From positions 32,656 through 96,655 of the forward strand of contig LGRX02035213.1 in NCBI GenBank assembly GCA_001247695.2: a DNA stretch of 64,000 nt, in the 5' to 3' direction. This document shows, one piece after another, positions 11,301 to 28,963 of the stretch (within the stretch, counting starts at the first letter, position 1; every line of letters begins with the position of its first letter). The notes beneath the pieces were generated by a model that did no database searches, was not told where the DNA came from, and worked only from the letters and a program-made list of their open reading frames with translations. Made by a program: the position numbers and the translations under genes. This DNA is from Cymbomonas tetramitiformis (taxonomy: Eukaryota; Chlorophyta; Pyramimonadophyceae; Pyramimonadales; Pyramimonadaceae).

Positions 11301-11329
11301 ATACCCGGAACGGTCTCGGACGGTTTCGG

Positions 11330-12419: not shown

Positions 12420-13434
12420 ATGGTAGCTTCTACTCGAGCCACCGCTAGCATGGCGAATCGCCGACGCGCACTAGCCACGATTTTTGATTCGGCAGCTGCG
12501 AGACACGCCAACACTCCAGCCACACCGCCGGCAGCTCAGCCGGCTGCCAATTCAGCAGGTGCTACATTCCTTGCCTCGGTGCGTACACTTCAACGGGAGC
12601 ACTTCGACATGAAAGTCTCCAAGTCCGTTCGTCAAAAGTTGTTCGAGGACAAGAACGGGCGGTTTTCGGCGGCTGAGGGCCACGCGTCTGCGATCTTCGC
12701 CAGGATGGTCTCTGCGCTGCAGACGGCGTTTGTCACGGAGGACATTGGTTTCGCACCCCTTTTCCTACTGGACGATGCTACCCTTCCCATCCGCGTGGAG
12801 GCCAACGCCTTATTGTTCTCCACGCTCGAGCTCATGGTTGACCCCGCGTCGCCGGCAGCGGACTGGATGGACTCCTCGCACTCCACGTTCCCGAACGACG
12901 GTAAGCGGGTGCTTCTCGAGTTTGCCCGCCGCATGATCCCAGCGGGTGACCCCTTTCAGGGCCAGGCGGACATGTTGGGCATCCGCGTCTCTGCGGGCGT
13001 GGACCCGCATGACAAGATCAGCGACTTCAACGCCGCTCTGAAGGCTGCGAGGACGCGGGCGACACTCCACGATGAGGACGTGAAGGCGCTGTTCATCAAG
13101 TCCCTCGACACCGTCTTCTACCAGCCGGTGGTGTCACGGTTGCTTCTCCACGATCAACGAGCCGCTCACGACCTCCTCACGATTCAACAATGGGTGCGTG
13201 AATGCTACTCCGAGCACGTGCGGGCGGGCACCGCCACGGCGTCCGCACACCGCTACTCTCACGGCACGCATTTCATGGAGGGAGCCGCCGATGACTCCGG
13301 TGGACCCGGTGAGCTCGCGGACTTGAGGACGATGGTCCTCGACTTGAAGCGTCAATTAGCCGCATTCCTCGACACCGCCGAGTCCGGACCGGCTCCGCGG
13401 GGGTTTACTCCTCGCGCGGACAAGCCGGACCGCC
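12420..13434 (+). pseudogene. Gag-like protein, N-terminal part, split by insertion
   Basis: The ATG at 12420 opens 338 codons that end in the target site CGCC (13431-13434). Residues about 45-280 are helical and capsid-like (DGKRVLLEFARRMIP; LFIKSLDTVFYQPVV) and match the gag at 8872-10487. The frame then enters the terminal repeat of the 15.5-kb insertion and reads a few dozen junk codons to a stop. The true continuation is at 28964. Confidence 0.85.
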
Positions 13435-13659
13435 TGTCGCGAACTTATGCACGAAGCGTCCACACAAAGCACAACTCTCTAGCCCTACTACTAGACAGTC
13501 TTACTTATTGTCAGTGCCTATACAACACAAGCTCGACTTTGCATATGTTTCCTTATATGACTGCACAGTTATCTTGCTACTGTGACTATACAAAATCTCA
13601 AAATTTTTGATATCTCTTTATCTCTTCTCACCACTTGTGCAAGCTCTTTTTCTCAACAT
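13435..13659. repeat. Terminal repeat A, outer copy (225 bp)
   Basis: Begins TGTCGCGAAC and ends TTCTCAACAT. I see no difference from 14045-14269. It is joined directly to repeat B, so 13435-14042 reads as a 608-bp TG...CA unit. Confidence 0.9.
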
Positions 13660-14042
13660 GAAAAAGACTGTTAATTACAGTTCTGACGCAGTCGCACAAG
13701 GGCAAGTCCACAAATGTATATCTTTACAAGCATAAGAATACTGTATCTCATTAATTATCTCATAACACTGCTGTTTTCGCGGTCTCAAGCGAGTCCTGGT
13801 TATTCTCGGAATCACTGTTACGAAGGCAAAACAAAAATGAGCGTCTGCTCACTCTCACTACGCCGCCCTACTTATTCTCGTTATCTCCAAACAAGTGTAA
13901 CACCCATCCGTATTTCCGTATCTCGTCACTGTCATAACTCCTCGCGCGTATCGTACTGCGCGTGTCATACGTTCGTCACAGAGACTGCTACAGCAAGTGT
14001 CACAACCCGGCTGAGGTACACGATAAGCCGTGGTTTGTGACA
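13660..14042. repeat. Terminal repeat B, left copy (383 bp)
   Basis: Begins GAAAAAGACTG and ends TTTGTGACA. It matches 28577-28959 with one visible difference. Read with the following gc and A, it makes the palindromic junction GACAGCTGTC at 14038-14049. Confidence 0.9.
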
Positions 14043-14044
14043 GC

Positions 14045-14269
14045 TGTCGCGAACTTATGCACGAAGCGTCCACACAAAGCACAACTCTCTAGCCCTACTA
14101 CTAGACAGTCTTACTTATTGTCAGTGCCTATACAACACAAGCTCGACTTTGCATATGTTTCCTTATATGACTGCACAGTTATCTTGCTACTGTGACTATA
14201 CAAAATCTCAAAATTTTTGATATCTCTTTATCTCTTCTCACCACTTGTGCAAGCTCTTTTTCTCAACAT
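14045..14269. repeat. Terminal repeat A, inner copy (225 bp)
   Basis: Direct copy of 13435-13659, separated from B by only two bases (gc, 14043-14044). On the coding (minus) strand it is preceded by CAGATGGGGG, which sits where a polypurine tract is expected just before the TG of an LTR. Confidence 0.9.
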
Positions 14270-14303
14270 CCCCCATCTGTAGCTGCCACTGGTAGCACAG
14301 ACA

Positions 14304-17300
14304 TTAGACAAGAGCTTGCTCAGCATCTTCTGTTGTAACGCCATCCATTGCGAACTTGCCCATGCTGAAGGTAAACATACCCACTCCAGAAGCTTCTCCT
14401 CCTCGCAACATCCTGGCTCTTGTCAAAGGGTTGCGAAACACCATGACCCACATGCATCTTCTGCCAATAGGTCCATGCTCCAAATGCCCAATCACATGTA
14501 AACGTCCAGCGTGACACAGCTTACGAAAGTATTGTGCCCTGCTCTCTGTCATATCTGTCATGTAGTGCGATGGCACATGAATACAAGCCACCACTCGGCT
14601 GGCCAGTACTGCCAACGGCAACGCAATATCCAGCACTGCGAACCAGGGTGAAGTTACCACTGCGTCACACACCCCATACTTCTCCTTCCAGGCTCGATAA
14701 TTGCCCGGTTGTAAAGCATTAAGGGCTTCGTGCCACTTCAACTGCGGATTCCAATCATTATTCATGACCCTCAGATGAGGCCACTCCAGTGACATAACCT
14801 TGCCAATGACACCTGTGCCAGCCCAAGGATCCCATACCTGTGTGATCTTCTCCCAAGTCACCTCGTGCGCCAAACGCCTGACCTCCTGAGGAACTGTCAT
14901 CACCAACTCTAAGCCCCAATCCAGTTGACTGGCAATCTTCACCTGAGCTCTGCTCAGTTGTGTGACATCTCCTCTCTTCTGAACTTCCTCGGGGCTCATG
15001 GCCTGCACCGTGGACGTCTTGCGGAGACTTCTCGCGCGAGCGTGCTGTTCTGCACACTTCCTGCTCAAGATGGTGCGATGGCCCTCATGCCAGAATCCTG
15101 GCATCACTTCTGTGATCACTCTGCTGAGCTCCTCCTGGCTTCCCCAGGCCACTCTGTCAGGAAGATCCCCCATGCTCCCTTCTCTGCTGAGCATCTGCCG
15201 CGAGCTCAGCGCCTGCCATGGGTCTTCACGTCCCGGCCTCACTGCACGATGCGGACCCACGTCTGCAGGCAACAATACCACATCTGATCCCAGCTTCTCT
15301 CTCAACTGCAACTCCATGGCCGCCATCTTGTCAACGATTGACGCGCTCACCTCGGCGGCAGCTGCCACCACAGTCCCACCTAAGCACTTGGGACACTGCC
15401 AATCCCCTTCAGGTACTCCATCCAGTGCTGGATTCAGACACCACGTGTGATAACCATGGTTACAGGTGTCACACAGCAACATGGCTGCCTCCCCATCTGT
15501 TCGCATGCACGCCTCACACGCGAGATGCTTGCTGGGAATGGCTGCACTGCAGTCGTACTGGTCTTTCACTTGTAAGTGACATGGCGCAATACTTTGCACT
15601 GTGCTCTTCTCCCGCAGCTTCGTGCTGTCCTCCAGCACTACCACTCCATCTCTTTGCACCTTGACTATCTTCAGGATGGCTGACTTGGTGGCCACCTCCA
15701 TGCCAGAGCGCGGTTGCTGTCGTATATACACGAAATCGCCTGCCTTGAACTGGTGCGGCTTCGGTTCGTAGCTGCCACTCCTCCTGTGCTCGTACCTCAA
15801 AGTGTCGCGGTGCTGAGCGATCTCCAGGTTGCACCCTGCATGTACCATGAGCCTCTTCACGATGGCGGCTCGCTGCAACAGATCATCAGCCAGTGTCTTC
15901 TCCTCCTGCTTCCCAAAGTCCAACTCGGGTCGAGCACGAAGATCCGGTGGCACCGTGGCTTCCTGAGCGAACAGCAAGGTGAATGGCGCCACTCCAGTGG
16001 ACTGCTGCCTAGCTGCGTTGTAGCTGAGTACGAGTGACCAGAGCATCTCATCCCACTCGAAGTCCAGGCCCTTGTCGAGGGCCATCTTCTTGAAGCAAAA
16101 CTTGAGGGTGCGTACCACCCGTTCAGTCAAGCCATTGCTCTCTGGGGAACTCGGTGAAGTCACTCTTCGGTCAATGAGACACTGCTCGCATAGAGCAGAG
16201 AACTCACCTTCAAACTCTGTGCCCCCATCCACCAAACATTCTGCAGGCGCCCCAAACACGGATAGGACATGATAGCGAAATGCGTTGGCGATGGTGGCGG
16301 CCTCCTTGTCGGGGATTGGAACGCACACAACGAATCGCGTGTAGTGCTCAATCATGACCAAGACGCGTTGGTTCCCAGCCTTCGTGACGCGTTTCGTGGG
16401 CCACGCTAAATCCAGGGACCAGCGATACATGAAGGACTTGATCTCCAGCGGCGTGAGATTCGCCTCCTCCCGTGCATAGTGCGTCTTCACCCTCTGGCAA
16501 GTCTGGCACTGAGTGACCACTGCTTGCACATCCTGTTTGATGCCTGCCCAGTAATGGCGCTGCCACAACAGGTTCAATGTCCGCCTGATGCCCCAATGGC
16601 CAGTCCTCTCATGGTACTCACGCACCAACTGAATCCTGTCACAGGGCTTGGGCACCAGCAGCTCCTTACCACTGACAGTGACCATGTATAACTCGCCCAT
16701 GAGCTCGTCCCAACGGTGACGCGCTGCCCTCTTCCTTACCCTGTGATATTCCTCCTTGGGCACTTCCACTCTTCCTCCTGTCTTGATCCACGCGAGGCAT
16801 AGCTCGTCCTCGTGTATGTCGGGGTGTCTTTCTCGGAATGACTCCTGGTTGGTTACGCTGGCTAGCATGGCAACCATCCTCGTCGTGTCGGGCAGCTTAG
16901 GCAGCCTCATCTCTTTCTCCTTTGTCACTGGTGCCCATTCTGGGGCTGAACTTGTCTCTGCTGGCTTGTCTCCAGGTCCTGAAAAGGCCTGCCGGTGACG
17001 TGCCTCGTAGCCCGCGAGCTTCATGGAGGCCATCTTCCACTGCCTGCGGCGTGGAACAGCGTCGGCGGTGCCTAGCCCCTGTGTACCTTTCTGTCCTTGG
17101 CTGCACATGCGTTGCAGTCGTTCTTCCCAGTCCTGATGGCTGAGGCGTCGCGCGACTTGCTGGGTGTAGCCGTTGGAACTGGTGATCCACTCTGCTAGTT
17201 GGGCTCGCACCGGCTCAGCCGTGCCCTCGGAGGTGGCAGCCACCTTGGTGGCTTTCACGATGGGGATGGCAACTAACGTGCCATGTTCCTTCTCCTCACT

Positions 17301-20300
17301 CTCCTCACTCATCGGCAGTTTGGTCGTGCTGACCTCGGCAATCGCATACAATAGCTCCATTGCTCTTCGGTCCATAGCAAGGCCAAGCACTCCTGCCAAT
17401 TCTTCGTCTTTCATGCCATGTGCCGCGCGCAGCTCACCTGCGCTGTACCCCATGGCCACTGCCTTCTCGTCCAGGTTAACCTCTCTGGTCTCCCCCACTT
17501 CATCATCATCTCCCTCCCTCACCACTGTGCCTGCGCGAGGCGCGCGAAAAGCACGAGAGTTTTGCGTCGCCAAGATGGTTGGCAATACTCTCATGGGCTC
17601 CCCTACAACGTTGGCGGTGTAGTGAGGCTTCCTGTCTCCTGTGACGACCCTGCGTGGCTTCCAGCCTCGCTGCAGAATATCGCGCACGTATCTGTCTGGT
17701 GGTCTGTCCACCCGCTCCATCACCAGATTGAACTGCTGATTCTGGAACAGATTGCTCCAATATGCTCGTAGACGATGCGCGTATGATCCCGCGCGCGCCG
17801 CGTCAAAGGACACCGGCTGGCCCACCACGCTGTTGATGATGGGGAACACCTCCTTCCTGATCTTCGAGTTCTCCTTGTGTGACAGCGGAGAAACGTTTTC
17901 CAGCACATATGCTGGCGGTCTCTGAGGCTGCAGCTGTTGCAGCGTGGAGAGGACTCGCACTGCCTGGTAGAACAGTCTGCTGTGCCTGCCCTCCAGACCA
18001 GCCAGCTTGCCAGCTGGTGACAGGTCCTGGCATGGATATCCACACACCATGACCCACTGCTCTCCACTCAATGCCCCTGCATGTACAAGGTCAATGAGGC
18101 TGGTGTCTTCGATGTTGCTGGGCAGTTGCTCCAAGTGGGCTGCCTCGGCACGGAACAAGTCAGGATGACGGCGACTGAGCGCCATGCACCTGGCCCTGGC
18201 TACCGTCTGGCTGGACTTCGAGATGTCCTGGTAGAGGTACTTGTTAACCTTAACTCCGCAGCGCAAGAGCATCTCTAGTCCAGCACACAGGCCCCCACAC
18301 GGCTCATAGCAGACCACGCCCTCTTCTCTGGCTTCCTGGAAGAAGCTCTTGTCAATCACTCTCGTGTCGATCTTCTTCGGCACTTTGAGCTTACCACCCT
18401 CCATGGTCTCGTCGCCGTATATCGCTGGTGAGCCTCCGGAATGCATACCCCTGATCGGCCGTACCTGGCTGAGGGCATCCCAGGCGACCCGAGTCAACCT
18501 GCCCGAGCACCTGGCCACTTCCGGGTGGTCAGTGTCAAACATGACCCCCTTGTTACACTCCAGCTCTTCTTGGTAGTGTACATCAAACAGTCGATGGACT
18601 GCACTGGTCCCCAGCTGCTCCCTGACCATGTTCTCGCAGTAGTTGGCCACCTGAGCTTCTGGGCTTACTTCGGGGCCAAGTGGTGGCTCCCTGGTCACTT
18701 CCCAGCAAATGGCGTCTGTGAAGCAGCGCGTTGGCCTCTCGGCACGCCCCGCTTCCCTGGCTCGGTCCCCTTCACGGTCCAAACGGGCACCAGTCTCGTC
18801 TGCGGTGCTGGGCAGTGGATACCTGGATGGCACATCCGCGTTCTCATTCTTCGGACCTGGTCGGTACTGGACCGTGAACTCAAACTCCTGGAGGCTGATG
18901 GCCCAGCGTAGGTGTTGACCTTGTAGGTCACCCTTCTCCATGAGTGTTGTGAGCGGCGAATGGTCGGTGATCAGCGTGAAGTGGACCCCGTGCAGGTACT
19001 GTCGTAATGTGCGGATGGCCCACACCACTGCCAGCATCTCACCCTGGAAGCTCGCGTACTGTCTCTCGGTTTTCGACAGCGAGCGGCTGATGACCACACA
19101 GATGTGTTCTACGCCATTCTCGTCCTTCTGCCCCAGCACTGCGCCAATGCCATGGTTGCTCCAGTCTGTGTAGAGGAAGATAGGCTTGCTGTAATCAATG
19201 GGCTTCAGACATCTCCCCGAACACAGGGCATCCTTCAATGCTTGTAATGCCTGGTCCTGATCCTTCCCCCAAGCTCCCTTGACATCCAACACTTCCTTTC
19301 TGAGCAGGTCGTTCAATGGTCGTGCCATCTCTGAGTAGTTGGGTCCCATGGGTTCCCCCACCAGACCTTTGTAGTAGTTCATGAGTCCAAGGATGGAGCG
19401 TACTCCAGTTTTGTCCTCGGGCTTGGGCAGCTCTTGGATGGCCTTGCACTTGATGTCCTGCGCGCCAATGGTGTTATAGCCGATGCGGTAGCCCAAGAAG
19501 TCCACCGTGGCTGACCCGAAGGTTGACTTGCCCGAATGCAGACGTATCCCTGCATCCCCCAAAGTGCGAAGCACGGCTTCCACATCCTTGATGTGCTGCT
19601 CAGCGGTGTCTGAGTATATGCACACGTCATCGACGTACGCCACCGTGCAGTGTTGCAGATGACGTAGCTCGTAGTCCATGATCCTGATGAAGGCTGCGGT
19701 TGCTCCAGCTGCTCCAAACGGCATGGATGTGTAGCGATAAAGCTGGTTGCCCCACCAGAACGCTGTCTTGTCCCTGTCCTCCTCAGTGGTCATGGGAATC
19801 TGGTGGAACGCCTTGGTCGCGTCCAGGGTAGTCTTGAACTTGGCCTTGGCCACGCGCTGGTAGAGCTCTTCTGGACGGTGTGGTAACGTATTATCCTTCA
19901 GCGACAACCGATTCGTAGATCGGAGGTCGACGCAGAATCTCGTCGAGGTCCACTGTCCAGTGTCGTGATCCTTCTTCCCTGCAACCACCACGTTGCTGGC
20001 GTGTCTGCAGTGCTGCGAAGCCGGCTCGATGAAGCCATATTCCAGCAGTTCCTTGCAGTGCAGGTCGATGATCTCCTGCTCTCCCGGGCTGTACTTCCTC
20101 GGTCGTTGGTAAGCTACCTTAGTCTCGTCCTTGAAAGGGATGGCGAAGGTCGCATGTGTCGCGCCCCCATGGTAGCCTTTGATGTCCTGCGGCTTGTTGG
20201 CGAAGCAGTAGCTGCACCTCCTTACCACGTTGCGCATCTCCTCCCAATTCTCCTCGGTGAACTCGGGATGTCCTCCAAAGGTGGCATTGAGCTCGGTGTC

Positions 20301-21347
20301 CAGCCACGCGGCCTCGTCCTTGGTGACCCTGGTTGTGCCCCCTGGCTGTAACGTGTCCAGCACCGTGTGCGGAAGCACCTCGTCCTGCTCTGCCACCATG
20401 GCCTCCCATCCGGTGTCCCATTGGCGCGAAGACCTCTGGTCTTCCCAGGCGGTCCTGGTAGATCTGATCGGCGAGCTCGAGCACGTGTCCATCGTCAGCA
20501 CGCCCTGAGGCTCCCCAGGGGCCACGACGGCCACCCAAGCAGCCACCGCTAGCAGCAGCAAAAGTTTTAAAATTCTGCCGGTACCCACTGGTTTAACTGG
20601 AGGGTGAAGGGTCAGTATGCAAGTCAACATCTTCCACCCCCCTTGCATACGGCCCAGGCCTCCTCCTGCAGACACGTAGACCACCAGCGCCAAGACTGAT
20701 ATCACATAGACACAGTGCGCCACTCGGTAGCAAGCGGCAGTGAACTGCAGGCGCTGCAGTCGAGCGGCAAAGCGCGGCTTCTGCATGCGCCGTGGAACAG
20801 CGGCCAGCGTAGCCGGCCCGGCGGCCAAGATCCGCTGGGCGACCGCCAGCGCGCGGCCCACCTGAGTCTCCAGCGCGGCGAATGTGCCACCATTTTGAAC
20901 TGAGCCGGAGCATGGCAACCCATGGTGGACAATGTGGGCGCCAACCGTCAAGACGCACCCCAGAGTGCCGACCATGTGTGTGAAGCGCATGGCGAGCATG
21001 ACGAGGCAGAACCGTATCAACGGCACGTACCACAGCCCACGCCGAGCGTGATGGAGCCCAGCTACCTCAAGAGCGCCCTTGGTCAACAGCAGTAGGTGCC
21101 TGGCCAGTGCCAACAGCACTCGGAGAGGCGCCTGTTGATGTGCCCATGGCTCGAGTGGCGTTGCGCGCACGGCCCACAACGCGCGTGCCATGGCTCTGCG
21201 GGGCGCCTCAGCGTGGAATGCCCAGCAGGCGACGACCTCACCAAGAAACCTGAATACCTCCATAGCCATCCACACTGCCATCACTGCAAAATGAGGCAGC
21301 TGCGGCCAACGCAAGCGCACGAACACCCCCACGAGCAGGAAGCACAC
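14304..21347 (-). CDS. Pol polyprotein: RT, RNase H, cytosine methyltransferase, integrase, PHD finger, second methyltransferase
   Basis: A 2347-codon open frame; the displayed first codon is GTG and the frame stays open upstream across the gag stop, so it is probably made by -1 frameshifting. In order: several hydrophobic helices (residues about 1-40, 105-140, 205-227, 258-277); RT (about 400-640, first Asp D509, box YVDD 571-574); RNase H (about 720-845; D728, E770, D795, D838); DNMT (about 1005-1310); integrase with H1579, H1584, C1614, C1617 zinc site and D1646, D1707, E1742; an SH3-like tail (about 1868-1925); PHD finger (1944-1988); and a class I methyltransferase-like domain (about 2165-2310). 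RT, RNase H and integrase are classical Ty3/gypsy order, with the DNMT placed between RNase H and integrase. All catalytic residues I looked for are present. Confidence 0.93.
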   Translation of the reverse strand: MCFLLVGVFVRLRWPQLPHFAVMAVWMAMEVFRFLGEVVACWAFHAEAPRRAMARALWAVRATPLEPWAHQQAPLRVLLALARHLLLLTKGALEVAGLHHARRGLWYVPLIRFCLVMLAMRFTHMVGTLGCVLTVGAHIVHHGLPCSGSVQNGGTFAALETQVGRALAVAQRILAAGPATLAAVPRRMQKPRFAARLQRLQFTAACYRVAHCVYVISVLALVVYVSAGGGLGRMQGGWKMLTCILTLHPPVKPVGTGRILKLLLLLAVAAWVAVVAPGEPQGVLTMDTCSSSPIRSTRTAWEDQRSSRQWDTGWEAMVAEQDEVLPHTVLDTLQPGGTTRVTKDEAAWLDTELNATFGGHPEFTEENWEEMRNVVRRCSYCFANKPQDIKGYHGGATHATFAIPFKDETKVAYQRPRKYSPGEQEIIDLHCKELLEYGFIEPASQHCRHASNVVVAGKKDHDTGQWTSTRFCVDLRSTNRLSLKDNTLPHRPEELYQRVAKAKFKTTLDATKAFHQIPMTTEEDRDKTAFWWGNQLYRYTSMPFGAAGATAAFIRIMDYELRHLQHCTVAYVDDVCIYSDTAEQHIKDVEAVLRTLGDAGIRLHSGKSTFGSATVDFLGYRIGYNTIGAQDIKCKAIQELPKPEDKTGVRSILGLMNYYKGLVGEPMGPNYSEMARPLNDLLRKEVLDVKGAWGKDQDQALQALKDALCSGRCLKPIDYSKPIFLYTDWSNHGIGAVLGQKDENGVEHICVVISRSLSKTERQYASFQGEMLAVVWAIRTLRQYLHGVHFTLITDHSPLTTLMEKGDLQGQHLRWAISLQEFEFTVQYRPGPKNENADVPSRYPLPSTADETGARLDREGDRAREAGRAERPTRCFTDAICWEVTREPPLGPEVSPEAQVANYCENMVREQLGTSAVHRLFDVHYQEELECNKGVMFDTDHPEVARCSGRLTRVAWDALSQVRPIRGMHSGGSPAIYGDETMEGGKLKVPKKIDTRVIDKSFFQEAREEGVVCYEPCGGLCAGLEMLLRCGVKVNKYLYQDISKSSQTVARARCMALSRRHPDLFRAEAAHLEQLPSNIEDTSLIDLVHAGALSGEQWVMVCGYPCQDLSPAGKLAGLEGRHSRLFYQAVRVLSTLQQLQPQRPPAYVLENVSPLSHKENSKIRKEVFPIINSVVGQPVSFDAARAGSYAHRLRAYWSNLFQNQQFNLVMERVDRPPDRYVRDILQRGWKPRRVVTGDRKPHYTANVVGEPMRVLPTILATQNSRAFRAPRAGTVVREGDDDEVGETREVNLDEKAVAMGYSAGELRAAHGMKDEELAGVLGLAMDRRAMELLYAIAEVSTTKLPMSEESEEKEHGTLVAIPIVKATKVAATSEGTAEPVRAQLAEWITSSNGYTQQVARRLSHQDWEERLQRMCSQGQKGTQGLGTADAVPRRRQWKMASMKLAGYEARHRQAFSGPGDKPAETSSAPEWAPVTKEKEMRLPKLPDTTRMVAMLASVTNQESFRERHPDIHEDELCLAWIKTGGRVEVPKEEYHRVRKRAARHRWDELMGELYMVTVSGKELLVPKPCDRIQLVREYHERTGHWGIRRTLNLLWQRHYWAGIKQDVQAVVTQCQTCQRVKTHYAREEANLTPLEIKSFMYRWSLDLAWPTKRVTKAGNQRVLVMIEHYTRFVVCVPIPDKEAATIANAFRYHVLSVFGAPAECLVDGGTEFEGEFSALCEQCLIDRRVTSPSSPESNGLTERVVRTLKFCFKKMALDKGLDFEWDEMLWSLVLSYNAARQQSTGVAPFTLLFAQEATVPPDLRARPELDFGKQEEKTLADDLLQRAAIVKRLMVHAGCNLEIAQHRDTLRYEHRRSGSYEPKPHQFKAGDFVYIRQQPRSGMEVATKSAILKIVKVQRDGVVVLEDSTKLREKSTVQSIAPCHLQVKDQYDCSAAIPSKHLACEACMRTDGEAAMLLCDTCNHGYHTWCLNPALDGVPEGDWQCPKCLGGTVVAAAAEVSASIVDKMAAMELQLREKLGSDVVLLPADVGPHRAVRPGREDPWQALSSRQMLSREGSMGDLPDRVAWGSQEELSRVITEVMPGFWHEGHRTILSRKCAEQHARARSLRKTSTVQAMSPEEVQKRGDVTQLSRAQVKIASQLDWGLELVMTVPQEVRRLAHEVTWEKITQVWDPWAGTGVIGKVMSLEWPHLRVMNNDWNPQLKWHEALNALQPGNYRAWKEKYGVCDAVVTSPWFAVLDIALPLAVLASRVVACIHVPSHYMTDMTESRAQYFRKLCHAGRLHVIGHLEHGPIGRRCMWVMVFRNPLTRARMLRGGEASGVGMFTFSMGKFAMDGVTTEDAEQALV
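14418..14855 (-). other. Second SAM-dependent methyltransferase-like domain of Pol
   Basis: Residues about 2165-2310. A motif I of the form D-P-W-A-G-T-G (2173-2179) and, about 50 residues on, D-A-V-V-T-S-P-W-F (2228-2236), which fits the (D/N/S)-P-P-(Y/F/W) box of amino-methyltransferases with Trp in place of the second Pro. The order (SAM motif before P-W-F) fits DNA adenine-N6 enzymes. The substrate is inference; the substitution could mean an inactive relative. Confidence 0.55.
15378..15527 (-). other. PHD finger of Pol
   Basis: Residues 1941-1990 carry a complete C4-H-C3 zinc pattern: C1944, C1947, C1959, C1962, H1967, C1970, C1985, C1988, with the usual Trp (DWQCPKC) two residues before the last pair. 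PHD fingers read histone tails. It follows the integrase C-terminal domain, the place where chromoviruses carry a chromodomain, so a role in choosing integration sites is a reasonable inference. Confidence 0.88.
15573..16670 (-). other. DDE integrase domain of Pol
   Basis: Residues about 1560-1925: HHCC zinc site (H-x4-H, then C-Q-T-C), catalytic core with S-L-D-L-A-W, V-D-G-G-T-E-F and E-S-N-G-L-T-E-R-V-V-R-T-L-K, then a basic SH3-like tail with AGDFVYIRQQPR. This is a retroviral-type integrase, not a tyrosine recombinase. Confidence 0.9.
17418..18335 (-). other. DNMT3-like cytosine-5 methyltransferase domain of Pol
   Basis: Residues about 1005-1310. Motif I is E-P-C-G-G-L-C-A-G-L-E; motif IV is G-Y-P-C-Q-D-L-S with catalytic Cys1106 (codon checked at 18030-18032); motif VI is L-E-N-V with Glu1150; motif VIII-like tract AHRLRAYWSNL. 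GVKVNKYLYQDI, GRHSRLFYQAV and the AHR..YW block resemble DNMT3 more than DNMT1 or bacterial enzymes. It would methylate cytosine in DNA using SAM. Reported algal and dinoflagellate retrotransposons carry similar captured enzymes. Confidence 0.9.
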
Positions 21348-21480
21348 CTGAATGCGCTTCGCCCGCCTATCATTGGCGGGCTGCGTGCCCGGCTTTTCGC
21401 CGGGGCTGCTTCTCAGTAACGGGCGCGCCGGGCTGCAGCTGGCCCGGTGCCCCCTTGAAAAGGCCCCAGTGCGCTCTCCC
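21348..21480 (-). other. gag-pol overlap in the -1 frame
   Basis: The gag frame ends with TGA just after ...RARY (21413). The pol frame is open through this stop and upstream of it, offset by -1. No perfect X-XXY-YYZ heptamer is obvious; runs of C/T and G lie 25-45 bp before the stop. A frameshift is the simplest way to make Pol from this mRNA. Confidence 0.6.
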
Positions 21481-24400
21481 TTCTCCTCTCCTCCCAGATC
21501 TCATCATAACTTTGGTGTCTCTGGGGAGCCCGCGACGCGCCCATGCCGGCATGCCGACCGCGAGACGCGTCCTGACGATGAGCGCCTTCCTCGGGGCTAG
21601 GAGATCTCCTCCTGCGCTGACCAGCCCGTGGTGAACTCTGCTGTGCGGCACCCCCAGTTGGACTCTGCGGGCGCGCTGCAGGTTGGCCTGAAGGTCGAGT
21701 GTCGACATGCGCAACGAAGCCACTGGAGCGCTCCGGGCTGCTGGGTGCTGTAGAGCTCGGGGTTGATGGCACGTATGAAACGGAGTCCGGCTCTTGTCCT
21801 GGGACAGCCGGAGGCACGGCTTCAGTCTGCTGCGTGCAGACGGAATGTGCAGGGGATCTCAGGATGTCGTGGATTGAATGGTGCTCAGGCCTCTGTGCCA
21901 TGTTGCACTCCAAGCCCATGGTCGATATCCCGCCGAGGACTCGGCCAGAGTAGGGTGTCGGCGTGGACGTGGCCTGCGTGCCCATGGTTGATATCCCGCC
22001 GAGAACTCGGCCAGTGTAGGGCGCCGGCGTGGACGTTCTCGCCCCAATCCTCGCAGTTGCGTGGGCAGTGCGAGGTCGTTCTTCATGTCCTCTGATGATC
22101 GCCTGACGCGCCTGTATCGATTCCGAGAGAGCCGCCATGGCGAGGTGGTTTGCTGCGACCTCGGCCTCCCTCCGCGCCAAACTGGCAGACAGCCCAACCA
22201 GTCTTTCACCGATGACCTCCACTTCATCTTCTGTCAGCGGCGACGGTGTCCTGGTGCGACCCGTGTGAGTGCTCACACCCTCAACAGCTGCGGGGTCGGA
22301 AGAGTATCCTGAGATGCTGTCGTCTCCCTCCTCACTTCCTGCATCCTCTCCCTCGATTGGGTCCAGGTTCCTCATGAAGTCGTTTCGAAGACGCTCCTGC
22401 ACCTCTGCCCGACGTGCCTCAGCCAGCAACGCCGGGCCCACCGAGGACGTGAACGCAGACAATGGTTCTCGGTGCATCACCGCCACCTTGTTCCAGGTCT
22501 CCCAGCTGCAGCAGTCAAACTTGCGCGTGACTGAGGAGAGGTACTCCAAGGTGAACGCCATGCTGCTGGGCCCCTGCTCACTGTAGTAGCGATTGTCCTC
22601 AAAGAGGTAATACACTGCCTTGGACCGGGCGTTGGCACGGGTCTTGAAAACCCGTAGGGTGCCCTGCCGTGGGCCATCGCTCAAATGGCTTCTGGCGATC
22701 TCCAAGAGCTGAGTGCGATCAACCAGATGTGTCATATGTTTCTGCAAGGTGCCGAGGAGTCCTCCCGTGCAGCCTTTCGACTGCCCACCCAGAGGCAGAA
22801 ACTCTTCCCTTTGTCCCACTCCTGCGGAGGAAGCGTACCGGTGCAGGGTCTGGTTGCTGAGTTGCTGCGTGTGCACCCCCCTTCCTCGCTGCGCGAAGGG
22901 CTTCCCGAGCTGGAACTCGATCTTGCCCATGAAGCAACGGTACTGGATGAGGAAGACCGTCTGTCCCTGCAGCGCCATGAACTCCGAGATCTCTCCCAGG
23001 TCCAGCCAGTTGGCTTCTCCAGCTGTGTTCTCGCTGCGAGTGGGCGACTCCGGCTCGTAGGTGCCCTGGAACACTGCAGCGTGGTAATCCAACATGGCAG
23101 GGTCGAAGACGCCGTTGGGCCAGGTTTGATGCCGTAAACGAAGCGGTGCTGAAGATGGTGGCGGTGCGGAGCCAGATGGCCCTGCCTCATCCCCCCTGAC
23201 CGTCCTCGACGTCCTGAGAGTCTTGGATGTGCGCACTGGAGGGTTTCTTCTGGCCCCATAAGTGTCCAGCGCGTCCTGTGCTTGCTCCTCTGTCTTGCAT
23301 GCTCCGAGCATCACTCTCGGGTTGTCCCCAAGATGCAGGTACTCCACGGCGGCAGCGTTCGTGCTAAACACCTCGCCATTGCCTCCTTCCCCATCTGTCA
23401 CCGGGTAGAACTTCCCCACCTTGTCCGCTGCGTCTGACAGCGTGAGCTGCGGGATCACATTCACCTCGCTCGCCACCTCCATATCGTACCTCACCTTCAG
23501 ACGAGCTCGAAGGTCAGCGATGTCCACTCGCTGTACGTACTTTAGATGCTGGTACTGCCAGCGCTGGTCCTTCTCATAGTAAAAAGGCAGCTGGAACTCG
23601 CCAGTCATCTTGCCCATGGGGTTCATGATGGTGACGCCTTCCATGGTGTGACGTACCATGCGCTCCATGAGATCCCATTGGGCGCGAGTGTGCTCGCTGA
23701 GTACGCAGAACTGGCGCGCCACCTTGTCCCACATGAGCTTGCCCGTCACGACTCCTGGGTACGTCTGATGGGTGTTGAGGACCTCCTGAACACTCGCCAT
23801 CGTGTACCTTCCTGCCTCCCGATGGGCACCACAGTCAGGGAGTGGGACCTGGTCGTTGTCCTTCTTGCCGCTCGGCCTCGTGGTCCAGGTTTCTGAGGGT
23901 ATCTTCGTCTCCTTGTCAACCTTCTGGTCCACCAACGTAAAGTCGGGCCACAGTAGCTCCGTCTCCAGGATGGTCTTGTATTCTCCACATCGCGGGAACT
24001 TGACCTGCACAAATCCTGCGTCTACACCACCTCCATCGACCTCTTCGCAGAGTGTGCACAGACGAGCATAGCCCGTGCGGTCGATGTACAAGCGCTGCTG
24101 AGACCAGCTACTCTCCTTGTCTTGGTAGTCCCACGGGTTCACTGCCATGCCCCCCCATGGCTGTACGCTGGCCAGCTTGAAGGCAGCTTCGCTCTCGGCC
24201 TCCTGCCTCAGCGTGAGGTCTGGATAGCGAGGGTCTGACTGAGTTGTGGTCAGGCTGGCTTGAGTGCGGGACTCCCTCGCATCTGGCTCTTCAGCACTGG
24301 ACCACTCACCCCTGGTCGCCACATTGGCTTCCCGCTGGCTGCGTGATGATGCTTGTAGCATGCCCAGCATCTGGTCTGTCAAGGACGTACCAGGCGGAGG

Positions 24401-27400
24401 AGGTTCGTACGTTGCGTTCTCGGCGTGTAAGCTGACCCGCCCAGTGAGCTCGACTTGCATCATTGAGCTGGGTTTCAAGAAGCCTGCCTCCACCATGGAC
24501 TGGCAGCGCGCCTCGAGCCTCTCCCTCTCATCCGAGTTGAACCTTCTCAGCCTCATCTCCTCTAGCCATGACGCCAGGCTCTCCATCAGCTCGGGGTGGT
24601 TTCGCGAGAATGCACAAGGTGCAGGCGAACACCTTTCCCCTGCGAGGGCCAGACGGTCCTCTCCCCTCGTGTCCAGGGACACTGCTTCACGTGGTGGTAG
24701 CTCGCAATCATCAAAAGCGGGGGCAAGAGTGCGCGCTGTCGCGGCCTCAACGTCGAAGATCTCGGTCGCCAGGCACACTCTCGGGTCTTCATTCCGCTTG
24801 CTCCTTGCATCGACGGGCGGCGTCAACTCGATCAATGGCAACGTGACCTTCTCCTTCATACCCAGTGACACCGCGGCCTCAGAAGTAGCAATGCCTCTGT
24901 AGAGGTCGATGGTCAACTTGAGGGCGTTCTTCAGGGGTCCAGTGCCCACCAAGAAGTCCCACGTCGTGTCATTGGTGTAGGTGACGAAGGCGTGGAGCCG
25001 ATGCAGAGTCATGTACGGCGTGCCCGCAGCGAGAACCACATCCACGTAGCAGTACTTCGTGAATTCCGCAGGGCTGCCATCACATCTCGCCACCCTGGCC
25101 CCTGTCTCTGCATCAAAGATGGTCAAGCCCAGCCTGTTGGCTGTCCTGATTGGGATAATGTTGCAGTTGGCCCCCGTGTCCAGGAGAAGCGCTTTGTACA
25201 ACATAAGCAAGCCTCCAGAGGCCATCAGCGCCATCCCTTGTGCCAGAGAATCGTTCAGGAGCTTGCATACAGGCTGGACCTGCGCCATGGCAGTGAGCTG
25301 TTCCTCTGTAAGGCCACTGAGCATCTTCTTCTTCAATAGCTCGTACGCCTTAGCGTCCATGGTCCCTGCGTGCAGCTCACCCCTCTCGCTGAAGTCTCTC
25401 ACCCCGTAGCTCTCCTGGACGGTGGCCGCTGCAGCTGTTACACGCACCGTCGTCCTCTCCTTCCTGGGCTGCTCCACCATGTCCTCCGGCATCTCATCCA
25501 GAGGAATCTCTTCTTCGTCACTGTCGTCGCCCGACTCCATGCCCGGGCAGTCATCATCCTCGTCGCTGGTGTCCTGGCAGTCTGCTGCTGAGGCTGTCGG
25601 CACGGGGAGCTGGTCGTTCTCAGCCAGTTCCACCAAGGTCTCCACACCCCTTGGAGCTGATATGCGACCTTCTGCTACGAGTCCAGCAGCTAGCTTGCGG
25701 AAAGCTGCTCCCAGGCTCTTGATCACGGAGGCCATGAGCTGCACCTTCCTCTGCATCTCGTCCGCCGCAGGCGCCATGGGCACCTGTGCGTCTGCCTCGT
25801 ACTCCTCGGGTGTCTTCACTGGGAAGCCCCTCATGCGCTGGGTACTTCCCAGGGCTACTGCTGGAGCCGCCGTGAGTTCAGACTCCACACTCTTGCACAG
25901 CGTCTCGGGGAGTGCCCCCAGACCCAAGGTGTTGAGGGCGCTCGAGAGCTCCTCTTCGCCCATCTCCTCGGCCATGGCTGTGAGTAACTCGGTTGGAGGG
26001 CCAGACGACACTCCTACCCCTGCGCTGCCATGGTGGTGCGCGCATGTGTCGACGGTGTGCGTCTCCCTCTCCGCGACGTGCGCTGCGACTGGTTCCCCGT
26101 CGGAGCCCTCATCCTCGGACAGCACCTGCGACTTCACGCTGCCCGCACGACTGGCCGTCTTCCTAGCAGCCACCATGCCCTGGTACTCTGCTTTCAACGC
26201 CTCGGGATTGCCAGTGGCGCTCTTCTGCTTGTCCTCTGGTGGCTGTTTGGCTCTGTACTTGTCCTTCTCTTCGTTGGACAGCTGCTGCCAGTCCGTCACC
26301 AGGATGCCCCAGTCAGAGTTCTTGAAGCGGTTCTTCAGGTTATACATGCGCAGAGCGGCGTTCTCCGCGTCCCACCACTTGCTGGAACCAAGCCTGCTTT
26401 CGTGGAATCCAGCAGGCATCTTGACGTGTTTATAACCACTCCTGCACTGCTCGGGATCGGACTCATGCCAGCCCCCTCCAAAGCAGCGCAAGCACTTGGG
26501 CTTGTCGTTCGTACGCACGCCCTCTGCTGGCGGTGGTGTCTTGTTGTAGGAGGCCTTCTTAGCCCTTTCGGCCACATTCACCTCCTTCTTCATCTTCTTA
26601 GAAGGTGATGCATCTACCTTCTTGCTGTTCTCCGGTTCGCCTGACTGCGCCACCTCAGAGGATTCAATCTTCTTGATCGAGTTCTTTATGGCCTTGAGGT
26701 CAAGGCCATGCTGTCGCGCCTCCCAGGTGGAGTACTGGCAGCCACATCGTCTGGTGATCTCCTGGAGGAAGGTGAGGATCCAAGACTCTGCATCGCCCTT
26801 GAGCTTGTCTTGAACCTCGATGATGGCCTCCAGGTCCTTCCAGGTCACCCGATTGGGTGGCGGGAACTGTGCCCTCAACTGCTCCTTCACCCGCGTCTGG
26901 AAGATCTTGATGCGCAGGTTGTCTACGCAGTCCTCGATGAAGGTACGCAGCTCTTCATCGCTCAACACCTTCCCAGTGTTGAGCTGCATTTCCCTGCGTT
27001 GGCACATCTTCATGTAGGTCAGCCCATCCTGCCCCACCTCCTGTGGCTTCTGTGTCAACAGATCCACTTTCTCTTGAGTCCCTTTCATCATGAACTTCTT
27101 GTCAAGGGCAGCGATGAAGCCCCTGAGCGCGTAGAAGTACTGGGTATCACGGGTGCCATCACGTCCCGTCAAGCCTTTCAGGGAGGTTCCATCAGTCAGG
27201 TATTCGTCGGAAACCTCCCCTTGGGTGTCTTGGTTCGTCACCGGCCTCGCTATCACCCACGTGGCGCCAGTGTTCATCTCATTGAAAGGGGGCCTAGCGC
27301 ATGGAATAGTACCCTCGAGTGGGCCATGCTCGCTAGTGTCCTTCAGGACTCGGTCCATGTTGGAGGTCACTACCCCCCCTCTTTCATAGTTCTCGCGCCA

Positions 27401-27829
27401 CCAGCTGAGAGCTTGTGAGTTCTCTCCAGCCAGACACGCAGGGATCATGTCCCACAGATATTCAAAATCAGGGGGAGTCTCTCTCAGGGTCTTCAGCTGA
27501 GCTTCAGTGAGAGTGCCAGCCCCGGACCTGAGCCTCTTCCTGACGTTGGCGTTGTGCTGCCGTACGAAATTCTCGCACATGTCGGCGAACTCCCTCAGGA
27601 ACTTGGGCCGATCTTCTTCCTTGGTGCCCGTGTAGTTGGGCAGCGTCCCAAGGTTGACACGAGCGTAGTCAGTATACTCCATGTCTTCTTCAAAGATTAC
27701 TAATGGCTCCTGGGCTTGGGCTTGCAGTTGGACTGGTGCTTGTGCCTCAGGCTGTACTAGTGCTTGTGCCTCAGGCTGGCCACCGGCAGCCCCTTCCTCT
27801 CCCTCCAGCTCTGAGAAATGCTGGCTCAC
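21413..27829 (-). CDS. Gag-protease polyprotein (about 2138 codons)
   Basis: A single long frame. The first displayed codon is GTG; the frame is open to a TGA at about 27940 without an ATG, and the first in-frame ATG is codon 50 (27680-27682). Residues about 50-390 look like a helical gag; 446-462 form a zinc-knuckle variant C-x2-C-x5-H-x6-C; about 470-530 has a W..LS.EEKDKY pattern that recalls an HMG box; 750-790 is very acidic; D884-T-G-A-N is the aspartic protease active site. The remaining 1200 residues have no domain I know; the end is Pro/Arg/Ser-rich with a repeated GRVLGGISTMG. Gag plus protease of this family is usually well under 1000 residues, so the length is odd. Confidence 0.88.
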   Translation of the reverse strand: MSQHFSELEGEEGAAGGQPEAQALVQPEAQAPVQLQAQAQEPLVIFEEDMEYTDYARVNLGTLPNYTGTKEEDRPKFLREFADMCENFVRQHNANVRKRLRSGAGTLTEAQLKTLRETPPDFEYLWDMIPACLAGENSQALSWWRENYERGGVVTSNMDRVLKDTSEHGPLEGTIPCARPPFNEMNTGATWVIARPVTNQDTQGEVSDEYLTDGTSLKGLTGRDGTRDTQYFYALRGFIAALDKKFMMKGTQEKVDLLTQKPQEVGQDGLTYMKMCQRREMQLNTGKVLSDEELRTFIEDCVDNLRIKIFQTRVKEQLRAQFPPPNRVTWKDLEAIIEVQDKLKGDAESWILTFLQEITRRCGCQYSTWEARQHGLDLKAIKNSIKKIESSEVAQSGEPENSKKVDASPSKKMKKEVNVAERAKKASYNKTPPPAEGVRTNDKPKCLRCFGGGWHESDPEQCRSGYKHVKMPAGFHESRLGSSKWWDAENAALRMYNLKNRFKNSDWGILVTDWQQLSNEEKDKYRAKQPPEDKQKSATGNPEALKAEYQGMVAARKTASRAGSVKSQVLSEDEGSDGEPVAAHVAERETHTVDTCAHHHGSAGVGVSSGPPTELLTAMAEEMGEEELSSALNTLGLGALPETLCKSVESELTAAPAVALGSTQRMRGFPVKTPEEYEADAQVPMAPAADEMQRKVQLMASVIKSLGAAFRKLAAGLVAEGRISAPRGVETLVELAENDQLPVPTASAADCQDTSDEDDDCPGMESGDDSDEEEIPLDEMPEDMVEQPRKERTTVRVTAAAATVQESYGVRDFSERGELHAGTMDAKAYELLKKKMLSGLTEEQLTAMAQVQPVCKLLNDSLAQGMALMASGGLLMLYKALLLDTGANCNIIPIRTANRLGLTIFDAETGARVARCDGSPAEFTKYCYVDVVLAAGTPYMTLHRLHAFVTYTNDTTWDFLVGTGPLKNALKLTIDLYRGIATSEAAVSLGMKEKVTLPLIELTPPVDARSKRNEDPRVCLATEIFDVEAATARTLAPAFDDCELPPREAVSLDTRGEDRLALAGERCSPAPCAFSRNHPELMESLASWLEEMRLRRFNSDERERLEARCQSMVEAGFLKPSSMMQVELTGRVSLHAENATYEPPPPGTSLTDQMLGMLQASSRSQREANVATRGEWSSAEEPDARESRTQASLTTTQSDPRYPDLTLRQEAESEAAFKLASVQPWGGMAVNPWDYQDKESSWSQQRLYIDRTGYARLCTLCEEVDGGGVDAGFVQVKFPRCGEYKTILETELLWPDFTLVDQKVDKETKIPSETWTTRPSGKKDNDQVPLPDCGAHREAGRYTMASVQEVLNTHQTYPGVVTGKLMWDKVARQFCVLSEHTRAQWDLMERMVRHTMEGVTIMNPMGKMTGEFQLPFYYEKDQRWQYQHLKYVQRVDIADLRARLKVRYDMEVASEVNVIPQLTLSDAADKVGKFYPVTDGEGGNGEVFSTNAAAVEYLHLGDNPRVMLGACKTEEQAQDALDTYGARRNPPVRTSKTLRTSRTVRGDEAGPSGSAPPPSSAPLRLRHQTWPNGVFDPAMLDYHAAVFQGTYEPESPTRSENTAGEANWLDLGEISEFMALQGQTVFLIQYRCFMGKIEFQLGKPFAQRGRGVHTQQLSNQTLHRYASSAGVGQREEFLPLGGQSKGCTGGLLGTLQKHMTHLVDRTQLLEIARSHLSDGPRQGTLRVFKTRANARSKAVYYLFEDNRYYSEQGPSSMAFTLEYLSSVTRKFDCCSWETWNKVAVMHREPLSAFTSSVGPALLAEARRAEVQERLRNDFMRNLDPIEGEDAGSEEGDDSISGYSSDPAAVEGVSTHTGRTRTPSPLTEDEVEVIGERLVGLSASLARREAEVAANHLAMAALSESIQARQAIIRGHEERPRTAHATARIGARTSTPAPYTGRVLGGISTMGTQATSTPTPYSGRVLGGISTMGLECNMAQRPEHHSIHDILRSPAHSVCTQQTEAVPPAVPGQEPDSVSYVPSTPSSTAPSSPERSSGFVAHVDTRPSGQPAARPQSPTGGAAQQSSPRAGQRRRRSPSPEEGAHRQDASRGRHAGMGASRAPQRHQSYDEIWEERRRESALGPFQGGTGPAAARRARY

Positions 27830-27941
27830 TCGTATCGCCCTCTGGGCACGCCTCTCTGCCCGTTGCTGTTCCTCGCGGTCAGCCTTGGATTCCGTTGCTA
27901 CCTTTCTGGTGAAGAAGAAATACTGGTGTGAAGGCTCTTTT

Positions 27942-28576
27942 CACTCCACACTTCCCAGCTTACCAGTACGGATGAATCCGTCCCTGGCCTCACCTTTCAG
28001 TGCTTTGCTCTAAGTAGCAATCACTGCCAGCATAATTTCGTCCACGACTGGTGAGCAAGGTTCCATCTGTGACCCGGTCTTATATTGGCTCTCCCAGATG
28101 TCCAGCAGGGTTGCCTCTGCACTTAGTGTCTCTGGTCCACGCAGTAAGTCAGTAGAACGCCAGCATGAGTCAGGTGACCACAAAGAATGCTGTCGTGAAG
28201 ATGCCCACTGACAGTCCTGTTTCGCTCCACGCCTTCAGGCGTACCAGTACGGATGAATCCGTCCCTGGCTTTACCGTCTGGTGCTTTGCTCCAGCAGGAT
28301 GTCACTTCCCGAAATAGCCCAGTACATAATTCTCAACGCTGCAATCATGTTCGTAAAATTAGCAACTGGTTCTGCTGTGACCGCTGTCGCTGTACTTCGC
28401 AAGACTGGTGAACTTCGAGTGTCGCAACAGCCTGCTTCACTCAACCTCTTCCAAGGCTTACCAGTACGGATATATCCGTCCCTGGCATCACCATTCAGAG
28501 GTCTCGTTCTTCAGGACTGCTGTTGAACTCTCAGCATTACAGACGACATGTCTGTAATAAGACTCATTTTTGTTTT
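27942..28576 (-). other. 5' leader of the 15.5-kb element with three hairpin motifs
   Basis: Non-coding DNA between repeat B and the gag frame. It holds three copies of a 27-bp unit built on the palindrome ACGGAT-GA-ATCCGT: 27961-27987, 28242-28268 and 28459-28485 (the third has TA in the loop). Spacing is 281 and 217 bp. Such structures could serve packaging, dimerisation, translation control or promoter function. No clear tRNA primer site follows the repeat end at 28577. Confidence 0.75.
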
Positions 28577-28959
28577 GAAAAAGACTGTTAATTACAGTTC
28601 TGACGCAGTCGCACAAGGGCAAGTCCACAAATGTATATCTTTACAAGCATAAGAATACTGTATCTCATTAATTATCTCATAACACTGCTGTTTTCGCGGT
28701 CTCAAGCGAGTCCTGGTTATTCTCGGAATCACTGTTACGAAGGCAAAACAAAAATGAGCGTCCGCTCACTCTCACTACGCCGCCCTACTTATTCTCGTTA
28801 TCTCCAAACAAGTGTAACACCCATCCGTATTTCCGTATCTCGTCACTGTCATAACTCCTCGCGCGTATCGTACTGCGCGTGTCATACGTTCGTCACAGAG
28901 ACTGCTACAGCAAGTGTCACAACCCGGCTGAGGTACACGATAAGCCGTGGTTTGTGACA
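28577..28959. repeat. Terminal repeat B, right copy (383 bp)
   Basis: Matches 13660-14042 except at 28763 (C for T). It ends TTTGTGACA and is followed by the target duplication CGCC. No repeat A adjoins it on the interior side, which makes the two ends of the element unlike ordinary LTRs. Confidence 0.92.
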
Positions 28960-28963
28960 CGCC

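Follow-up and report, generated by a model that had tools for sequence, protein, structure and literature searches.

The 64,000-nt stretch of Cymbomonas tetramitiformis (Chlorophyta) DNA that we analysed (the window) carries a whole 15.5-kb retrotransposon insertion (13435..28959, minus strand, as are all features of the element given below), which probably belongs to a recently active, autonomous-looking family of Ty3/Gypsy type whose Pol protein acquired a DNMT3-like domain, a PHD finger and a second methyltransferase-like domain. The architecture, the many intact copies, the constraint on each module, the split repeats and an insertion that duplicates 4 bp of its target can be read from the sequence itself. 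The element has TGTC/GACA ends and is flanked by the target site duplication CGCC on the low side (13431..13434) and the high side (28960..28963, both unstranded). Once the insertion and one copy of the duplication are removed, the joined flanks give a stop-to-stop open frame of 830 codons. A preliminary description of this DNA had placed the element between the same ends, at 13435 and 28959, and had reported one uninterrupted 2347-codon frame with reverse transcriptase, RNase H, C5-methyltransferase, integrase and PHD finger; the coordinates fit, and the frame with these domains is present according to Pfam.

Beyond the text of that description, we observed a gag-like ORF1, an overlap between the two open frames, split terminal repeats and the target duplication. 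ORF1 (2138 codons, 21413..27829) is gag/protease-like, with a CCHC-like knuckle at residue 446 and DTGA at residue 884, and gave a weak Pfam match to Asp_protease_2 (E=0.013) under the cut-off of that model. Its open frame overlaps that of ORF2 by 88 nt (21413..21500), with ORF2 in the -1 frame, and no X-XXY-YYZ frameshift heptamer was found in this overlap. ORF2 encodes Pol (2347 codons as listed, 14304..21347; the open frame starts at 21500). The reverse transcriptase (residues about 420-640, 19428..20090) matched Pfam RVT_1 at 2.1e-21 and the RNase H (residues about 690-860, 18768..19280) matched RT_RNaseH at 1.5e-32; together they are nearest to Ty3, with Ty3 Gag-Pol as the top match among solved structures (2.8e-81). 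The integrase (residues about 1560-1800, 15948..16670) comprises an H2C2 zinc domain (Integrase_H2C2, 3.3e-16) and a DDE core (rve, 7.8e-7; 29.7 bits, under the curated 32.6), an assignment also based on the 4-bp duplications. An Rfam scan of positions 11000-31000 returned nothing at gathering scores.

In the sense direction the repeats are arranged as b-body-a-GC-b-a, a split order like that of DIRS elements. Terminal repeat b1 (384 bp, 28576..28959) forms the sense 5' end and shows 1 difference from b2 (384 bp, 13659..14042), and internal repeat a1 (224 bp, 14045..14268) is identical to a2 (224 bp, 13435..13658), which forms the sense 3' end. At the boundary of a1 and b2 the window copy has a GC spacer (14043..14044), which is also found in 15/15 other copies having b2. 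The 5' end of the element consists of b alone and the 3' end of a-GC-b-a, or of a alone in 4/20 copies, with the a1-GC-b2-a2 order complete in 15/20. Spacer and repeat order were found again in a second family in the genome, of which one copy was read and whose repeats are hardly alignable to those of the first. Exact 4-bp target duplications flank all 12 copies with both ends readable (the window copy and 11/11 further ones).

Between RNase H and integrase, Pol contains a C5-methyltransferase domain (residues about 1010-1345, 17313..18320), recovered by Pfam as DNA_methylase (PF00145, 4.9e-10) in the kind of HMM search that the preliminary description had proposed as a check. It carries PCQ at residue 1105, ENV at 1150 and AHRLR at 1190, and in the alignment of this domain the catalytic Cys is present in 70/71 rows, the motif VI E-N in 71/71 and the motif VIII R-x-R in 69/70. 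Motif IV reads PCQ or ECQ, DNMT3A having PCN, and the proline preceding the catalytic Cys is kept in just 38/71 rows. When a profile of the domain was compared with solved structures, DNMT3A matched at 1.6e-12, the best entry not named DNMT3 at 9.2e-6 and M.HhaI at 1.3e-5; the single sequence gave 9.8e-4 for DNMT3A, 0.0065 for M.HaeIII and 0.033 for M.HhaI. The predicted DNMT3-like class, which had been claimed earlier, is thus supported as judged among solved C5-methyltransferase structures. This result disfavours a bacterial or phage origin, and does no more than disfavour it because the bacterial dcm model (NCBIfam, 1.6e-9; 37.8 bits, far under its cut-off of 100.65) and phage methyltransferase profiles (PHROG, best 1.8e-11) also match. 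Among the matches listed, the closest free-standing prokaryote-like proteins match weakly (5e-4 and worse). Chlorophyte-specific DNMT classes are described in the text of PMC12344493 and PMC10538959.

The PHD finger (residues 1944-1988, 15384..15518) lies C-terminal to the integrase and was likewise recovered by Pfam (PF00628, 8.7e-10). The C4HC3 character ascribed to it previously held, each of the eight zinc positions being conserved in at least 64/66 rows, and the Trp ahead of the last Cys pair is present in 62/66. Its top solved relatives include the PHD fingers of KDM5, CHD4 and BAZ2, whose known ligands include the H3 tail with lysine 4 unmodified, and we therefore propose that it may read H3 in this state.

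The C-terminal domain (residues about 2120-2320, 14388..14990) has DPWAGTG and TSPWF motifs and profile matches among its relatives. DNA amino-methyltransferases combine the SAM motif DPxxGxG with a motif that is usually N/D/S-P-P-aromatic; the domain has DPWAGTG for the former and TSPWF where the latter is usual. Family models did not recover the domain in the window copy, which matched no family in Pfam, NCBIfam or PHROG; searched alone, it gave a single, implausible Pfam match under the cut-off, and a profile search of solved structures returned no relative. The C-terminal domains of relatives matched PHROG 799, a DNA methyltransferase family, in 6/19 cases (best 3.8e-4) and MethyltransfD12 in 4/19 (best 0.014), together with weak, scattered NCBIfam matches, and at least 4 relatives have lost the first motif. 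It is quite possible that the domain does not methylate DNA and is another Rossmann enzyme, methylating RNA or protein instead, or that it serves as a binding domain. The missing family and structural matches, the scattered NCBIfam results and the TSPWF replacement favour such an identity, whereas the PHROG 799 and MethyltransfD12 matches of relatives argue for a DNA methyltransferase. The second methyltransferase of the preliminary description is partly supported: the domain has methyltransferase-like motifs and is under strong constraint, and any class or substrate assigned to it would be putative.

How the modules might act together can be outlined in conditional terms. The a1-GC-b2 junction within the transcript would serve as the template restoring both ends that are missing from the RNA. 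The DNMT domain may methylate new cDNA or the fresh insert, and the C-terminal domain may act on that DNA as well, either as an amino-methyltransferase or as a binding domain descended from such an enzyme. The PHD finger could anchor the complex that carries out integration on the tails of histone H3, perhaps those in which lysine 4 is unmodified. We infer from these domains that the PHD finger may steer integration and that the element may write its own marks. The complete version, in which two DNA marks (5mC and amino-methyl) are placed on the element's own cDNA, the PHD finger sets the integrase on a chosen H3 state, and a DIRS-like repeat bridge is followed by DDE insertion, is unlikely as a whole. 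Rather unlikely, too, is that the methyltransferases conceal the cDNA from the defences of the host or contribute to silencing of the element, with the PHD finger having no targeting role. Protection of cDNA by methylation is discussed by the authors of PMC5890265 (2018), and 4/12 transitions between repeat pairs fall on the 652/7131 CpG positions (p=0.019). Such a role for the methyltransferases would, however, leave retention of the PHD finger after the integrase in 65/76 homologues unexplained. CpG decay in ORF2 gave p=0.07, and we rejected CpG decay as proof of methylation since the signal is too weak on 12 transitions and in ORF2.

A one-off fusion, which the preliminary description had allowed for should copies elsewhere lack the domains, was rejected. 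All 20 genomic matches scored, window copy included, are full length and 19 are stop-free; the second family has 21 scored copies, with the main pieces stop-free in 20/21, and copies and homologues carry the same domains, so the combination is not confined to the window copy. Among 76 DNMT-bearing homologues, the integrase was found in 71, RNase H in 70 and RT in 68, and the C-terminal domain profile in 34, the remaining 42 including some truncated gene models. No homologue match listed was named Klebsormidium, and a search of IMG/VR for related loci confirmed none. In the 51/77 proteins with RT, DNMT and IN domains all long enough, the tree distances correlate (Mantel r 0.64-0.73; reached in 0/999 shuffles) and the three modules appear to travel together; the C-terminal domain is present in 26/51, with 5 changes between presence and absence along the RT tree and 7 along the DNMT tree. 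Over 19 copies, piN/piS was 0.032 for RT, 0.019 for RNase H, 0.113 for DNMT, 0.114 for IN, 0.088 for PHD and 0.005, the lowest, for the C-terminal domain, against 0.22-0.31 for two linkers and the N-terminal part, with piN depressed everywhere because the copies compared were best protein matches, and single ratios rough because piS ranges from 0.013 to 0.071 across domains and segregating sites are as few as 9 (PHD). Between the two families, dN/dS was 0.131 for the C-terminal domain, not below PHD (0.120), IN (0.060) or RNase H (0.083), and the DNMT gave no ratio because dS was saturated. A scenario in which host genes supplied the DNMT, the PHD finger and the C-terminal domain as passengers that now drift is very improbable: the homologues in which the C-terminal domain was not found, some of them truncated models, and its eroded motifs in several relatives would fit, but each domain lies below the linkers in piN/piS, ENV, DPWAGTG and TSPWF are intact in 19/19 copies, and the domains are conserved over distant homologues.

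That the element is a DIRS-type tyrosine-recombinase retrotransposon is scarcely credible and was rejected, since its repeat order fits the A-coding-B-A-B order of DIRS elements (PMC5890265) but the Pfam matches of ORF1 and ORF2 include H2C2 and rve integrase models and no recombinase, and 4-bp duplications are found in 12/12 copies. With Ty3/Gypsy elements it shares an H2C2 and DDE integrase 3' of RNase H and a short target duplication; it does not have two identical full LTRs and is a split-repeat variant. With DIRS elements it shares split direct repeats, but it has a target duplication and no tyrosine recombinase among the Pfam matches of its ORFs.

A single conserved protein unites functions usually split between host and transposon: it has a methyltransferase of de novo type, a finger of the histone-reader type and an integrase. 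Because many near-identical intact copies share one genome, it can be tested whether the PHD finger directs integration, whether the element methylates its own cDNA and how split-repeat elements restore their ends. As a young, many-copy element with epigenetic domains under selection, it offers a natural system in which to ask whether mobile DNA writes, and reads, chromatin marks of its own.

The precedents in Klebsormidium and Symbiodinium cited in the preliminary description were borne out. KnitGypsy-Dnmt3 of Klebsormidium nitens is, like the Cymbomonas element, a Gypsy element with a DNMT3 domain within Pol, DIRS-type repeats and a DNMT under purifying selection (de Mendoza 2018, PMC5890265), in a charophyte rather than a chlorophyte host. 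The main text of PMC5890265 contains neither 'PHD' nor 'target site', and its section on KnitGypsy-Dnmt3 names no second methyltransferase in the element. The 4-bp duplications connect DIRS-like repeats with DDE-type insertion, beyond that text on the Klebsormidium element. A DNMT3 in a Gypsy element with DIRS-like repeats is therefore already known, and for the predicted PHD finger, the second methyltransferase-like domain and the 4-bp duplications in such elements we found no published precedent in the literature. SymbioDIRS-Dnmt3 of Symbiodinium shares the DNMT3 in Pol and split (A-coding-B-A-B) repeats, but has a tyrosine recombinase where the Cymbomonas element has a DDE integrase (PMC5890265). 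Some DIRS elements carry a Dam-like adenine methyltransferase, as PMC5890265 and PMC6338049 mention; by description they are similar in joining a retrotransposon to an amino-kind methyltransferase and differ in element class. Chromoviruses are chromodomain Gypsy elements, with a chromodomain as reader where the Cymbomonas element has a PHD finger, and to our knowledge they carry no DNMT. Like the Cymbomonas element, they hold a chromatin-reader domain inside the Gypsy polyprotein (PMC6338049).

The element lies on the minus strand, at 13435-28959 of the window from the green alga C. tetramitiformis (Pyramimonadophyceae), with TGTC/GACA at its ends and CGCC flanking it on both sides. Its first frame, ORF1 (2138 codons), carries a motif resembling a zinc knuckle as well as DTGA, and its protease match in Pfam is weak. 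ORF2, the Pol frame, overlaps ORF1 by 88 nt in the -1 frame and runs for 2347 codons counted from the first listed start, the frame being open from 21500. Pfam recovered reverse transcriptase (RT), RNase H, an integrase zinc domain, an integrase core, a C5-methyltransferase (DNMT) and a PHD finger from ORF2, confirming the preliminary description, which had placed these activities in one frame, with the integrase core model rve at 29.7 bits, under its curated cut-off of 32.6. Upstream of the listed ORF1 start, a 72-nt unit with the inverted core ACGGAT..ATCCGT is present in three diverged copies (27939-28010, 28220-28291 and 28437-28508) and is a possible RNA packaging or dimer signal.

Over the DNMT part, the nearest protein, 98% alike, comes from a Cymbomonas record. 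Among solved structures, DNMT3A ranked first both for the single sequence (9.8e-4, with M.HaeIII at 0.0065 and M.HhaI at 0.033) and for a ten-sequence profile (1.6e-12, with the best entry not named DNMT3 at 9.2e-6 and M.HhaI at 1.3e-5), and the profile alignment places a block D-A...A-H-R-x-R...W-x-N-L in common with DNMT3A. The bacterial dcm model (1.6e-9, below cut-off) and phage methyltransferase models (best 1.8e-11) also match, in both cases with partial coverage of the domain. Because E-values from the separate libraries (structures, NCBIfam, PHROGs) are not comparable, the designation DNMT3-like, put forward from the first reading, rests on the structure ranking and the shared block. 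Motif IV is PCQ in the window's copy; across 71 aligned rows it reads PCQ in 38, ECQ in 21, ECK in 5, SCE in 4, and DCS, ECA and AET in one each. The nearest solved structure to the RT is Ty3, and those nearest to the PHD are the PHDs of KMT2D, KMT2C, CHD4, KDM5/lid, WSTF, BAZ2 and ATXR5. A few positions before the M-L-L-C-D block of the PHD, D/E occurs at 1951 in 49/66 sequences and at 1953 in 48/66, which, as a guess by analogy, would be compatible with a reader of unmodified H3K4.

We searched the 852 Mb genome (25,745 contigs) for further copies and scored 20 candidates; a first-look listing of 19,511 candidates does not give the number of copies. The 20, which include the window's copy, all cover residues 1-2347 at 99-100%, and 19 are stop-free. 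A second family (query P0007) gave 21 main pieces at 99-100%, of which 20 are stop-free, with a stop in one of the 21 upstream pieces. The possibility that this copy is a one-off fusion, which the preliminary description had itself raised, is thus contradicted by the 20 full-length scored copies and a second family. In the 19 stop-free copies, where piN is lowered because they were picked by protein score, piN/piS is 0.126 overall, 0.032 for RT, 0.019 for RNase H, 0.113 for DNMT, 0.114 for integrase, 0.088 for the PHD (9 segregating sites only) and 0.005 for the C-terminal domain, compared with 0.308 for the N-terminal part and 0.278 and 0.222 for linkers. As piS spans 0.013-0.071 between regions, the contrast between domains and linkers, rather than any single ratio, is the useful part. 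Between one copy from each family, dN/dS was 0.083 for RNase H, 0.060 for integrase, 0.120 for the PHD, 0.131 for the C-terminal domain and 0.219 for the post-PHD linker; dS was saturated for the DNMT, the DNMT-integrase linker and the integrase-PHD stretch, which gave no valid ratio.

In sense orientation the element reads b1 (384 bp), body, a1 (224 bp), GC, b2 (384 bp), a2 (224 bp); in the window's copy b1 and b2 differ by one base and a1 and a2 are identical. For the other 19 copies, we retrieved the end regions as far as the contigs permitted. The a1-GC-b2-a2 end is found in 15/20 copies, including the window's and C3640, in which a2 has no match over its first 13 bases; it is partly deleted in C20559, and four copies (C23344, C17123, C25216 and C76) are of a short form that ends after a1. 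The GC spacer between a1 and b2 is present in 16/16. A 4-bp target duplication flanks all 12 copies in which both flanks are readable (CGCC, TATT, TAAT, GAGT, AGGC, GCAA, ATTG, GTTA, GTTT, ATTG, TGTG and AGTA), and it reaches 5 bp in none of the 11 other than the window's; in the remaining eight (C24459, C17123, C20559, C838, C23523, C16239, C24135 and C18557) an end or flank lies off the contig or could not be located in the stretch retrieved. Since three short-form copies also carry the target duplication, this form could have arisen by recombination between a1 and a2, be a primary product, or reflect a collapse in the assembly. In the second family, the single copy that was read has the same a1-GC-b2-a2 end with its GC spacer, though just 24 repeat bases align to the first family. 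TGG, with which tRNA primer sites usually begin, was not seen by eye in the first 40 bases past b1 of the window's copy. Because of the split repeat ends and the 4-bp duplications, we conclude that this family joins DIRS-like repeats to DDE-type insertion.

Few positions differ within repeat pairs (24/7131 aligned, several pairs being identical), and the insertions are therefore recent. At position 192 of repeat a, four copies (L011, L015, L029 and L033) share one T/G difference between their a1 and a2, and a fifth (L040) has it reversed; equalisation of a1 with a2 may therefore not occur at each round of replication. CpG transitions were rejected as evidence of methylation: the excess in repeat pairs (4/652 at CpG vs 8/6479 elsewhere; Fisher p=0.019) is a small, post-hoc count, and among single changes in ORF2 the CpG transition rate (0.018 per site, vs 0.010 at other G/C sites; p=0.07) is not above that at A/T sites (0.024), the commonest single change being A to G (47/146).

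The insertion site lies inside another frame, with an ORF at 12351-13433 plus 28960-30249, that is open for 830 codons from stop to stop once the element and one duplication copy are removed. This frame belongs to a short unit with 214-bp flanking repeats (11823-12036 and 30502-30715, 99% alike); it contains a C-x4-C...H...C stretch, and a Pfam scan of both halves gave no match. The unit is possibly a non-autonomous, gag-only LTR element. Nearby, 92 nt at 11467-11558 match the outer end of repeat b at 87-88% and may be what is left of a related element. Elsewhere in the window are a tandem array of 185 bp period (39143-40263; shifted copies 93-96% alike), two more RT frames (51574-52599 and 56883-57575; PF00078 at 1.4e-30 and 3.6e-6, the latter below its cut-off) and a cyclophilin-like frame (55707-56537).

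The C-terminal domain of ORF2 (residues about 2120-2320) had been described as a second methyltransferase. The motifs are present, with TSPWF ~60 residues after DPWAGTG, and in amino-methyltransferases of one order motif I lies ahead of motif IV; the arrangement would fit such an enzyme, although TSPWF departs from the usual motif. HMM searches of the window's copy found no family in Pfam, NCBIfam or PHROGs; the excised domain gave one implausible Pfam match below cut-off, and its profile had no credible match among solved structures (best 0.41). When 19 relatives were scanned singly, weak DNA methyltransferase matches appeared: PHROG 799 (DNA methyltransferase) in 6/19 (best 3.8e-4) and MethyltransfD12 in 4/19 (best 0.014), with scattered weak NCBIfam matches. 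Three of 40 proteins retrieved by this domain alone are named methyltransferase by a source, and the first motif is absent from the homologues P0016, P0017, P0024 and P0026.

Retrieval with the DNMT part yielded 76 homologous proteins, some being truncated models or contigs; having been collected by DNMT, the set is uninformative on elements lacking one. Fifteen are named as Cymbomonas and two as Scenedesmus (Chlorophyceae by the lineage of one record), the other 59 comprising 8 from EukProt and 51 from other sources; a protein labelled Chrzof, presumably Chromochloris, came up in a further search. BLAST placed DNMT in 76, integrase in 71, RNase H in 70, RT in 68, the PHD in 65 and the C-terminal domain in 32 (34 by profile). 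Tree distances for RT, DNMT and integrase correlate (Mantel r 0.725, 0.644 and 0.729; 0/999 permutations as high) in the 51/77 proteins in which each of the three domains was of sufficient length, as expected if the modules travelled together. The C-terminal domain was not found by profile in 42/76, and its presence switches 5-7 times on the trees, which suggests repeated loss or gain.

Capture of DNMTs by retrotransposons in Klebsormidium and Symbiodinium, mentioned in the preliminary description, is published: a Klebsormidium Gypsy element with DIRS-like repeats captured DNMT3, Symbiodinium DIRS and LINE elements captured DNMT, and DNMT action on cDNA is suggested for DIRS elements (PMC5890265, 2018). 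A 2019 opinion paper, in one sentence, names green algae among the hosts of Ty3/Gypsy and DIRS elements that encode DAM and DCM (PMC6338049), and a 2025 survey mentions DNMT3 in LTR and DIRS elements (PMC12344493). Searches of open-access full text yielded no description of a PHD, the C-terminal domain or target duplications in such elements. The anatomy first described is real and stronger than stated, with many intact copies, two families, conserved modules and unusual ends; the function is weaker, its support stopping at insertion.

We propose that a transcript from b1 to a2 would give an RNA in which both end repeats lack their outer parts, and for which a1-GC-b2, holding both complete ends, could be the bridge template. 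A bridge template of this sort has been proposed for DIRS-type elements. The integrase would then join the TGTC/GACA ends with a 4-bp stagger, and the DNMT domain would be positioned to act on the cDNA. The PHD after the integrase is reminiscent of the chromodomain that chromoviruses carry; by analogy, this suggests that the PHD may tether to histone H3.
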